Shown: positions 18,197-20,273 of the stretch, piece by piece | How the letters are laid out: each line of letters opens with the position of its first letter | Position numbering within the stretch: position 1 is the stretch's first letter | From: a virus | Reading direction: 5' to 3' (one strand) | Virus record (IMG/VR): IMGVR_UViG_3300013285_000045 | Location: 1-34,018 of that record | DNA: 34,018 nucleotides | Program-made: the position numbers and the translations under genes | Notes under the pieces: model-generated | The model's input: only the letters and a program-made list of their open reading frames with translations | The model's database searches: none | What the model was told of the DNA's origin: nothing

Positions 18197-18421
18197 CTCA
18201 CGTGTCGGTCACCATACGGCAGGCGTGAGGGACATCCGGTACTGTGGGAAAGCTCTGAGACACCGGACAGGCTGGCGAAGCTAGCGGCCTGGGGCGAACG
18301 GCTCGCGGGCATGTGCGGCTCCGTCCAGCATGTAGAAGGCTAGTCCTCTTTACCTGAGGAGGGCTAGGCTTTGCTCACCATCCAGCATAGGTGATAAGGG
18401 AATAGATGTAAGGGACTAGCC
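18197..18421 (+). other. Hairpin-rich non-coding stretch before the methylase
   Basis: Four further local stems: CTCACG/CGTGAG with inner TGTCG/CGGCA (18197-18229); TCCGGT/ACCGGA (18235-18267); CAG-GCTGGC-GAA-GCTAGC-GGC-CTG (18268-18291); and CTAG-TCCTC/GAGGA-GGG-CTAG (18340-18367). The last competes with a perfect 9-bp long-range pairing, GGCTAGTCC (18338-18346) with GGACTAGCC (18413-18421). No ribosome site and no protein-like frame were found. It could be a structured RNA or the leader of the methylase mRNA. Confidence 0.45.
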
Positions 18422-18447
18422 CAGTTAGCCCTCCCATATCATTTTCA

Positions 18448-18474
18448 AACCATAGACGTATATGGTTATCCACA
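18448..18474. promoter_or_regulatory. Dyad overlapping a consensus DnaA box
   Basis: AACCATA-GACGTA-TATGGTT (18448-18467) is a perfect 7-bp inverted repeat. Its right arm overlaps TTATCCACA (18466-18474), identical to the bacterial DnaA-box consensus. It lies 22 nt before the methylase GTG. A replication or regulatory role is possible; a single box can occur by chance. Confidence 0.4.
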
Positions 18475-18484
18475 CAATTGTCAA
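18457..18484 (-). promoter_or_regulatory. Possible antisense promoter
   Basis: The minus strand reads TTGACA (18484-18479), 16 nt, then TATACG (18462-18457). A transcript from here would run leftward, antisense to the hairpin-rich region. The -10 matches only four of six consensus positions. Confidence 0.25.
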
Positions 18485-18495
18485 CAGGGGAAAAA

Positions 18496-19326
18496 GTGAA
18501 TGAGTTACATCTATTCGCGGGCGCTGGTGGAGGCATCCTCGGCGGGCAATTACTCGGACACCGATGTGTCTGTGCCGTTGAGTGGGATTCCTACGCGCAA
18601 TCCGTGCTTGTGGCACGACAAAACGATGGATGTTTCCCGCCTTTTCCGATTTGGGATGACGTGCAAACCTTTGACGGAAAACCTTGGCGCGGAATTGTTG
18701 ACATCGTGGCTGGCGGGTTTCCATGCCAGGACATCAGCGTGGCTGGAAAAGGCGCAGGAATCACCGGAGAGCGTAGCGGAATGTGGAAGCACATGGCGCG
18801 CATCGTTGGCGAGGTTCGACCCCGATTCGTGTTCGTGGAAAACAGCCCAGCAATCATTACTCGAGGACTCGGAGTTGTCCTCGGTGACTTGGCCGCGCTC
18901 GGGTATGACTGTCGCTGGACAGTGCTGGGAGCTGCCGATGTTGGGGCGCCGCACCAGAGAGACAGAATTTGGATTCTTGCCCACTCCCGTAGCAATGGAT
19001 GCAGGCTCGGGAAGATTCAATACGTCAATCGGCGGGACGCCGCGCCCGACGCTGGCATTGATGGCGAGGAAGCAACTTTGGCCGACACCGCAGGCGAGGG
19101 ATTATCGCAACGGGGACAAACCGGACAGCCTCAGAGCGATACGCAAACGCCAGCAGGGATGGTCGCCAAATTTGAACGATCTGGTGATGTGGCCGACGCC
19201 AACGGCTCAGGACGCCAAGAACAACGGCTCAGCATCGCAGATGAACAGGAATTCACTGCCGCTAAACGCAGCAGTTGGTGGGCAGTTGAACCCCAACTGG
19301 GTAGAAAAGTTGATGGGCTGGCCTGA
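18496..19326 (+). CDS. Cytosine-C5 DNA methyltransferase, C-terminus lost
   Basis: 276 aa from GTG 18496, preceded by AGGGG at 5 nt. Motif I is HLFAGAGGG (residues 5-13). Motif IV with the catalytic Cys is GGFPCQDIS (Cys77). Motif VI is VENSP (114-118). Motif VIII is HQRDRIWILA (153-162). After that the variable region has ADT-like repeats and WWAVEPQLGRKVDGLA, then stops at TGA 19324-19326, exactly where family members continue into motifs IX-X. A motif X segment (IGNGQVP) is found ~480 bp downstream in another frame, beyond an HNH gene. Role: methylates host-like cytosine sites in phage DNA to evade restriction. Without motif X it may be inactive unless the downstream part is joined. Confidence 0.85.
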   Translation: MNELHLFAGAGGGILGGQLLGHRCVCAVEWDSYAQSVLVARQNDGCFPPFPIWDDVQTFDGKPWRGIVDIVAGGFPCQDISVAGKGAGITGERSGMWKHMARIVGEVRPRFVFVENSPAIITRGLGVVLGDLAALGYDCRWTVLGAADVGAPHQRDRIWILAHSRSNGCRLGKIQYVNRRDAAPDAGIDGEEATLADTAGEGLSQRGQTGQPQSDTQTPAGMVAKFERSGDVADANGSGRQEQRLSIADEQEFTAAKRSSWWAVEPQLGRKVDGLA

Positions 19327-19900
19327 CGATTGGACATCAATGCAACCCATAAGCCATGTTAAAATGTGCTTTTGGCTTATGGGCATGCACAATGGAACGG
19401 AAACCGGAAGAAGCGAAGTTCTGCGAATCTTGCGGAACGGAGATGCTGCGCAAGAGATTCAACGGGAGATTGGAAGACCTGTCGGTGTTCATGAAGCGGC
19501 GCTTCTGCTCGCTGAGTTGTGCGAACACGCGAACCGACCTGACGAAGCACGGGTATTCATGGCGTGCGCGAAAGCACTTGGCGAAGAAATGCGAGGCGTG
19601 TGGCTACGCGAGGGCACTACAGGCGCACCACATCGACCAGGACAAGACGCACAACGAGCCGGAGAACATCCAGACGCTATGCAAACACTGTCACGACTTC
19701 TGGCACACCACGGGCAAGCGTATTGGCAGGACGGTCGCTGGGAGGATGCCACGCCTCGAGTGGCTCATGGGGTGGCCCATCGGTCACACCGACTTAAGTG
19801 TATTGGCAACGGACAAGTCCCCCTCTGTGCCGCAACAGCATGGAGATTGTTAATTGATGACCTACGCGCAAGCCCGACGCATCCTCAATGCCGCCCGTGA
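18500..19900 (+). CDS. Overlapping PTP-repeat protein in methylase +1 frame
   Basis: 466 codons from ATG 18500, 4 nt after the methylase GTG, open through the entire methylase gene and beyond. The first ~280 residues resemble a recurrent phage protein I recall, starting MSYIYSRALVEA and containing SCSWKTAQQSLLEDSE, VTWPRSGM, three PTP motifs (FLPTPVAMDA, LWPTPQARDY, MWPTPTAQDA) and LNPNWVEKLMGWP. Past ~residue 285 the frame crosses the HNH gene out of frame and then encodes the methylase motif X (RLKCIGNGQVP, AATAWRLL). The conserved phrases mirror conserved methylase motifs one base off, so this may be a real overprinted gene or a conserved shadow; sequence alone does not decide. Confidence 0.45.
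   Translation: MSYIYSRALVEASSAGNYSDTDVSVPLSGIPTRNPCLWHDKTMDVSRLFRFGMTCKPLTENLGAELLTSWLAGFHARTSAWLEKAQESPESVAECGSTWRASLARFDPDSCSWKTAQQSLLEDSELSSVTWPRSGMTVAGQCWELPMLGRRTRETEFGFLPTPVAMDAGSGRFNTSIGGTPRPTLALMARKQLWPTPQARDYRNGDKPDSLRAIRKRQQGWSPNLNDLVMWPTPTAQDAKNNGSASQMNRNSLPLNAAVGGQLNPNWVEKLMGWPDDWTSMQPISHVKMCFWLMGMHNGTETGRSEVLRILRNGDAAQEIQREIGRPVGVHEAALLLAELCEHANRPDEARVFMACAKALGEEMRGVWLREGTTGAPHRPGQDAQRAGEHPDAMQTLSRLLAHHGQAYWQDGRWEDATPRVAHGVAHRSHRLKCIGNGQVPLCAATAWRLLIDDLRASPTHPQCRP
19346..19383 (+). other. 11-bp inverted repeat at left edge of HNH insert
   Basis: CCCATAAGCCA (19346-19356) and TGGCTTATGGG (19373-19383) are perfectly complementary around a 16-nt loop that contains TAAAAT and an AAA/TTT pair. 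The ATG of the HNH gene follows 8 nt later. It could control HNH translation or mark the insertion end. Confidence 0.6.
19392..19853 (+). CDS. HNH homing-type endonuclease inserted in methylase
   Basis: 153 aa from ATG 19392; an in-frame ATG at 19356 lies inside the inverted repeat. An N-terminal Cys cluster (FCESCG, RRFCSLSC) is followed by the HNH core KKCEACGYARALQAHHIDQD and NIQTLCKHCHDFWH, with Cys67, Cys70, Cys97 and Cys100 as zinc ligands and His79-His80 in the active site. After ~residue 118 the sequence changes to RLEWLMGWPIGHTDLS, which is the C-terminus expected of the PTP-repeat frame, so the HNH ORF is fused to displaced host-gene sequence. No clear ribosome site is present. Typical role: cleaves alleles lacking the insertion to spread itself. 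Confidence 0.82.
   Translation: MERKPEEAKFCESCGTEMLRKRFNGRLEDLSVFMKRRFCSLSCANTRTDLTKHGYSWRARKHLAKKCEACGYARALQAHHIDQDKTHNEPENIQTLCKHCHDFWHTTGKRIGRTVAGRMPRLEWLMGWPIGHTDLSVLATDKSPSVPQQHGDC
19760..19900 (+). pseudogene. Displaced methylase C-terminal fragment (motif X)
   Basis: In the frame starting at 19760 the DNA encodes VAHGVAHRSHRLK, then CIGNGQVP and AATAWRLLIDD, the standard end of Dcm-type enzymes. The methylase ORF upstream ends with VDGLA-stop, homologous to the VAHGVA start of this fragment. The offset between equivalent ATG/GGG bases (19313 and 19767) is 454 nt, that is 3n+1. It could be expressed only through the overlapping 466-codon frame, by frameshift, bypass or RNA joining. Confidence 0.65.
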
Positions 19901-20042
19901 GGGTCAGGATGTCTCCATTCGTTCCATCACCTTCGCGTTGATCGAGTCCGGAGACATTGACGCGAAAAAAAGATCACCAGACTACTTGACTCATCATCTA
20001 ATCACTATGTATAGTGATGGCTCCTGCAACCAACCGGAGTAA
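19857..20042 (+). CDS. Small early hypothetical protein
   Basis: 61 aa from ATG 19857, 3 nt after the HNH stop and overlapping the end of the 466-codon frame. The product starts MTYAQARRILNAAREGQDVS and has an ITFALIESGDIDAKKR segment, helical and soluble. I recall no function. A sigma70-like promoter for downstream genes lies within its 3' end. Confidence 0.58.
   Translation: MTYAQARRILNAAREGQDVSIRSITFALIESGDIDAKKRSPDYLTHHLITMYSDGSCNQPE
19986..20015 (+). promoter_or_regulatory. Sigma70-like promoter for recombination genes
   Basis: TTGACT (19986-19991), 18-nt spacer, then TATAGT (20010-20015) preceded by TG. The dyad TCACTAT-GT-ATAGTGA (20002-20017) covers the -10, so a repressor could act here. 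The next gene starts at 20046. Confidence 0.5.
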
Positions 20043-20045
20043 AAA

Positions 20046-20273
20046 ATGAGACTGTGCATCGACTGTCGGCATCACAAGCATGATGCCGCTAACCCCGAGT
20101 ACGACAGGTGTGGCAACCCTGACGTTCGTGTGATTGATCTTGTGAGAGGGCAACACTCCATGCCTTACGCAAAGATCACCCGAATGCAAACGCAGCCATG
20201 CGGCCCATCTGGATCGTTATTCGACTACGACCCAGGTTCTTCACCAGTCATTGAGGAGGATTTCTATGTCTGA
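20046..20273 (+). CDS. Cys-rich small phage protein
   Basis: 75 aa, ATG 20046 with CCGGAG upstream. The start LCIDCRHHKHD and later Cys residues (DRCGNP, TQPCGPSG) give four to five Cys plus His that could bind zinc. I recall similar proteins (a CRDC-type start and a CGPxGxLF end) in many early regions; function unknown. It overlaps the exonuclease gene by 8 nt. Confidence 0.68.
   Translation: MRLCIDCRHHKHDAANPEYDRCGNPDVRVIDLVRGQHSMPYAKITRMQTQPCGPSGSLFDYDPGSSPVIEEDFYV

Follow-up and report, generated by a model that had tools for sequence, protein, structure and literature searches.

Overlapping +1 reading frames at a phage locus probably encode the two halves of one C5-cytosine methyltransferase

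The phage methylase locus described here very probably encodes a single C5-cytosine methyltransferase as two proteins, translated from overlapping reading frames in a +1 relationship. Judged by motif content, the first protein (alpha, frame A) would be responsible for SAM binding and catalysis through motifs I–VIII and, in relatives without an insertion, would also provide motif X. The second protein (beta, frame B), whose ATG lies 4 nt past the alpha start, would contribute the TRD and motif IX and dock on alpha, thereby forming the DNA-binding cleft. Ribosomes probably initiate at both neighboring codons. A mobile HNH gene appears to have been inserted at motif IX. The translation of both proteins, the assembly of the heterodimer, and its methylation activity are predicted from the sequence, whereas the protein-level selection acting on both frames is observed.

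The window, namely the whole stretch of DNA analyzed, is one strand of the IMG/VR record IMGVR_UViG_3300013285_000045 (positions 1 to 34,018; 34,018 nucleotides), a virus record with phage terminase and portal genes. The methylase locus, shown in pieces covering 18,496 to 19,900, adjoins RecE/RecT-like genes and comprises three ORFs (alpha, frame B, and HNH) in three frames within 1.4 kb. Its features are as follows.

18486..18491, + strand: Shine-Dalgarno-like AGGGGA, for GTG 18496 and/or ATG 18500 (sequence; relatives)
18496..19326, + strand: alpha frame (frame A), putative catalytic subunit of the C5-cytosine methyltransferase, motifs I–VIII (PF00145, phrog_363, HhaI)
18500..19336, + strand: beta frame proper, with the N-terminal part over motifs I–VIII, the TRD zone with PTP repeats, and motif IX (phrog_1008; selection tests)
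18500..19900, + strand: entire present frame-B ORF, comprising beta, the out-of-frame HNH insert, and motif X (ORF listing)
18973..19285, + strand: TRD zone, with frame B encoding three [LW]PTPxAxD repeats and frame A acting as a shadow (substitution rates.260/.070/.069 at alpha positions 1/2/3)
19286..19336, + strand: motif IX in frame B, LNPNWVEKLMGWPDDWT (similarity to the in-frame motif IX of single-frame Dcms)
19325..19778, + strand: HNH-bearing insert, about 454 nt (1 mod 3), with boundaries deduced from uninserted relatives
19347..19383, + strand: hairpin CCCATAAGCC...GGCTTATGGG at the insert start (fold z = -2.87)
19356..19853, + strand: HNH endonuclease ORF in the third frame, alternative start ATG 19392 (PF01844, phrog_1271)
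19781..19900, + strand: C-terminal end of the methylase with motif X (IGNGQVP), at present read in frame B (sequence)

The alpha frame extends from GTG 18496 to a stop at 19326. The preliminary description had assigned motifs I, IV, VI, and VIII of a methylase to this frame, and the assignment is borne out by a PF00145 match at 1.3e-34 over motifs I–VIII. Alpha also matches phrog_363, as well as HhaI over motifs I–VIII at 6e-19, and the SAM-binding and catalytic motifs I, IV (PCQ), VI (EN), and VIII are all present. The TRD and motifs IX and X do not share a chain with motifs I–VIII: motif IX lies in frame B, as does the motif X of the window (RSHRLKCIGNGQVP, 19781–19822). Motif X has been lost from frame A here, and therefore the window's own enzyme may be impaired; the HNH insert may have altered it. 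Frame B is +1 relative to frame A and runs from ATG 18500 to a stop at 19900. Its coordinates, openness, and length of 466 codons stand as previously described, but the ORF is a composite of the PTP protein as far as motif IX (about 19336), the HNH insert (about 19325–19778), and motif X. It is plausible that one ribosome site is common to GTG 18496 and ATG 18500. Among relatives with the alpha start codon directly at this place, an SD-like word is found at a suitable spacing from the beta ATG in 121 of 138, against a background of 14%.

The first ~280 residues of frame B had been regarded as a recurring phage protein, and this is confirmed by a match to phrog_1008 at 2.3e-37; the conserved phrases quoted earlier also lie where they had been placed. 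The window beta and all 82 of the 82 aligned betas match phrog_1008. The C-terminal block of beta, LNPxWVEWLMGWPxGW, is of the motif IX type and is absent from frame A. Residues 262–290 of the beta query align with motif IX in Dcms read from a single frame, such as the enzyme of locus L011, and in ordinary enzymes of this kind LTPLECERLMGWPDDW is followed by motif X in the same frame. ShiLan gp70, an actinophage Dcm, and Fitzgerald gp4 each combine motifs I–VIII, LLPTPxAxD repeats, an IX-like block, and motif X within a single polypeptide. Both proteins match the two families, with gp70 aligning to phrog_363 over residues 1–385 and to phrog_1008 over residues 196–388 (2e-61). In one relative, L076, alpha stops after motif VIII, and frame B carries the TRD, motif IX, and motif X. 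Owing to the motif IX match, these single-chain proteins, and the L076 layout, beta is best read as a specificity subunit. Instead of being an unrelated phage protein, the PTP protein is thus most likely the methylase's own subunit, bearing the TRD and motif IX; the TRD boundary in the window is a prediction. A genuine beta protein could alternatively act outside the methylase, for example as a regulator, an inhibitor, or a counter-defense protein, and its N-terminal part indeed has neither a recognized fold nor a Pfam match reaching the curated cut-off. We consider this role very improbable, as the order and place of the TRD and motif IX are those of single-frame Dcms and the IX-like block of the overlap family is found in beta, not in alpha. 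A PADLOC search with beta gave no match, and the beta profile retrieved chance hits only from PDB sequences, with no solved structure matched. The AlphaFold model of beta alone has a mean pLDDT of 57, which is too weak for the TRD fold or docking. A frame-joined alpha–beta chain (P0005) was modeled with a good core and a TRD zone below 50, and a PDB fold search with it retrieved methyltransferase folds such as HhaI, HaeIII, and DNMT1, with no evidence for the TRD.

Relatives were collected in two sets. The first was drawn with the PTP protein as the query. Loci L008–L023, found in this way, contain no overlapping pair, and their match runs through motif IX; in the four that were read (L008, L009, L011, and L023), motifs IX and X occupy a single frame. 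The second set of 160 loci was obtained by applying an alpha profile, A1, to bacterial genomes and viral contigs, so that loci were not picked for having frame B open. A1 was built from the alphas of loci first found via beta, and therefore the results for this set, including the 144/144 below, hold for this alpha subfamily, not for all Dcms. Among the 159 placed alpha-selected loci, alpha reaches motif X in 132, beta is open through the strict motif IX pattern in 130 (the remainder being partly pattern misses, as in L089, or contig-edge cases), and the two ends are a median of 8 nt apart. The beta ATG lies exactly 4 nt inside the alpha start position in 161 of 173 loci. Well over a hundred phages and bacteria retain this two-frame reading; a distant search of E. 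coli DNA returned four genomes only.

The test of openness was performed on the alpha-selected loci and replaced an earlier version in which loci had been chosen by beta. Frame B over motifs I–VIII is open in all 144 of 144 evaluable loci. In 72 representatives (<85% identity), it contains 0 stops versus 182.6 expected under synonymous permutation, with 6.0 open loci expected; this test and the codon-position test below count related sequences as independent. The third frame, serving as a control, contains 604 stops against 458 expected, and general stop avoidance is therefore not the cause of the open frame B. Substitution rates at alpha positions 1/2/3, from 57 non-overlapping close pairs, are.099/.046/.222 in motifs I–VIII,.260/.070/.069 in the TRD zone, and.160/.061/.133 around motifs IX–X. 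Since alpha position 1 corresponds to beta position 3 and the rates are reversed, the coding behavior passes from frame A to frame B at motif VIII. In the TRD zone, the methylase frame is the shadow, and around motifs IX–X both frames are constrained. The window shows the same codon-position tendency against its nearest relatives.

Constraint is also evident at individual synonymous sites. In the alignment, the alpha codons for V113 (GTG, 100%; pooled 24%), A132 (GCC, 100%; 19%), and G135 (GGG, 99%; 16%) are fixed, even though each of these amino acids has four codons available, and they spell conserved beta residues, namely the W of SSWKT and the P and G of LPRWG. The first alpha Asn is AAT in 159/159, creating the beta ATG, and the Asn of ENSP is AAC in 156/163. 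Beta still opens with M[STA]WLISxAL in loci L154, L167, L169, and L180, where the alpha N-terminus over it is different. The fixed codons and this retained start indicate that the N-terminal part of beta is selected as a protein, beyond mere openness, and both frames are under protein-level selection. The preliminary description had left two alternatives, a true overprinted gene pair or conserved shadows of methylases, in which methylase residues and codon usage force frame B open and the database proteins are spurious. Much of the beta N-terminal similarity does follow alpha conservation, with alpha being 84–91% and beta 62–68% identical to the nearest relatives. Nevertheless, the shadow reading is contradicted by the absence of +1-frame stops among methylase relatives (0 in 144 loci) and the strong constraint at methylase synonymous sites (the V113, A132, and G135 codons), the two checks that the description had proposed. 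It also conflicts with the synonymous permutation, the reversal of codon-position rates across the TRD zone, the loci with a stop in alpha beyond motif VIII but an intact beta (L076, L098, L103, and L116), and the occurrence of the same domain in-frame elsewhere, and we regard it as exceedingly improbable. The overprinted pair is strongly supported by the openness, codon-position, and synonymous-constraint results. What that description missed is the probable identity of the PTP protein as TRD plus motif IX, the shadow status of the methylase frame in the TRD zone, and the rearrangement of the 3' third by the HNH gene.

Programmed +1 frameshifting near motif VIII would yield one chain with motifs I–VIII, the TRD, and motif IX, and beta would not arise from its own ATG. 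One-frame versions do occur naturally, in L175 and L185 through an indel and in ShiLan gp70 in full, and the frame change sits at the border between motif VIII and the TRD. However, frameshifting needs no open frame B upstream of this border, yet that region has 0 stops in 144 loci and a fixed ATG. The codons for beta W113 and P132 are synonymously constrained, the start motif is kept independently of alpha, and motif X would still require unshifted alpha. Frameshifting is accordingly judged unlikely, and two separately initiated proteins remain the preferred reading. In the frameshifted alleles L175:1667-2473 and L185:3004-3810, motifs I–VIII are joined to TRD–IX by the indel, with motif X in another frame; frame exchanges of a related kind follow the same Gly-rich stretch in L159 and L179. 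In L033:1497-2196, L202:1435-2112, and L206:1408-2112, the alphas differ after motif IV and lack ENSP, while the frame-B ending is similar (LHTPTTKAN...WLMG[FW]P), which suggests recombination inside the overlap. In L005:1776-1795, alpha starts further upstream, and AAGGAG stands 7 nt before the beta ATG within alpha codons, as if it were a ribosome site for beta; an SD-like word is present in only 5 of 16 such loci.

The HNH ORF of the window matches PF01844 (7e-5) and phrog_1271 (6e-11), and the former beta end, now displaced, forms its C-terminus. Positions 19356–19853 are double-coding for HNH and frame B. The insertion would have shifted the downstream frame, so that motif X is now joined to beta through the out-of-frame HNH region. 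A third-frame HNH gene at motif IX, with motif X landing in frame B, is found in eight loci (the window, L001–L004, L161, L170, and L122), which are partly related and thus do not represent eight independent events. Frame B is stop-free through the insert in all eight, with 2.9–7.8 stops expected in each (permutation P below 0.001 to 0.023). Other HNH types occupy the same site in L161/L170 and in L122. The distribution of the insert is patchy, and the HNH gene presumably spreads by homing. A group I intron was rejected as an account of the insert, as positions 18300–20100 have no Rfam match at E<=1. A perfect 10-bp inverted repeat near the HNH ORF start, CCCATAAGCC/GGCTTATGGG at 19347–19383, folds better than shuffled sequences (z -2.87) and possibly controls HNH translation.

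In a class-level sample, phrog_1008 was matched at E <= 1e-6 in 13 of 369 genomes, one of which was the genome used as the centre. As to whether PTP homologs always overlap a Dcm frame, a Dcm-type ORF coincides with the match in 11 of the 12 other, newly drawn genomes (recognized by pattern in 8 and by eye in 3); L215 was unreadable. Where both frames were read (L207–L214, L219, and L220), the Dcm-type ORF is offset by -1 from the PTP frame. The alphas of L207, L210, L211, and L220 form a divergent group with GEQ replacing EN, and their +1 frame likewise contains PTP repeats and an IX-like block. Dcms outside the subfamily (L198, L200, L201, and L205) contain 12–16 stops in the +1 frame. In the more distant relatives L197, L199, and L031, upstream closure of frame B means that beta has to begin within alpha; the near-complete overlap is therefore one form of a wider arrangement. 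L031:1225-1929 is an overlapping-frame locus of Paenibacillus phage Arcticfreeze (MH431932.1). Some deposited P. larvae phage genomes have both frames annotated as nested 'DNA cytosine methyltransferase' genes, and in several phages the annotation covers only one of the two.

On balance, we lean towards the broader proposal that many phage and bacterial Dcm-like enzymes filed as single ORFs are obligate heterodimers, with a specificity subunit overprinted from nearly the same start. If this is true, such pairs would be among the commonest long same-strand overlaps in prokaryotes. Because only one ORF of a strongly overlapping pair usually survives gene calling, half of the enzyme would be dropped or mislabeled, and functional work with alpha alone may report inactive methylases. 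Suspected annotation ghosts would become a testable specificity subunit. The locus also offers overprinting studies a long stretch of double-coding DNA, conserved in many phyla, in which coding responsibility changes frame at a domain boundary, and HNH insertions with an open host frame provide natural experiments on subunit rearrangement.

A full-text literature search, with most subscription journals outside its scope, found no description of the arrangement as a widespread one. The annotation of phrog_1008, 'DNA methyltransferase', is silent on the overlap, the subunit role, and motif IX. Judged by the described motif layout, M.EcoHK31I appears to be the nearest described precedent. Its beta subunit was reportedly found by Lee et al. 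in 1995 to be read from a different frame within the alpha gene. This natural two-polypeptide C5-methyltransferase (YGGCCR) has motifs I–VIII and X on the large subunit and motif IX on the small one (PMC3404938). Similarly, motif IX here lies on a second frame inside the alpha gene (130/159 by the strict pattern), and motif X is retained in alpha in 132/159 relatives, although not in the window with its HNH insert. In contrast to M.EcoHK31I, the overlap spans nearly the whole alpha gene, with starts usually 4 nt apart, and the TRD is selected in the beta frame, whereas it is predicted in the large subunit of M.EcoHK31I. The two-subunit M.AquI (CYCGRG) has motifs I–VIII on the large subunit and, being split after motif VIII, the distal TRD and motifs IX and X on the small subunit (PMC3404938). 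The window and L076 resemble it in motif layout, with large I–VIII and small TRD–IX–X parts at a predicted TRD boundary, but here the I–VIII region is double-coding and beta runs back across it. ShiLan gp70 and Gordonia Fitzgerald gp4 share the PTP-repeat TRD zone and the IX-like region, but in one continuous chain. Out-of-frame HNH insertions of the ShiLan type in phage methylases lie in the third frame at a conserved-residue site, with an open host frame and no intron found (PMC11855218). The HNH gene of the window is likewise in the third frame, with a stop-free host frame and no known self-splicing intron. It differs in that the frame it entered shares its DNA with a second methylase frame, and the insertion moves motif X from one putative subunit to the other.
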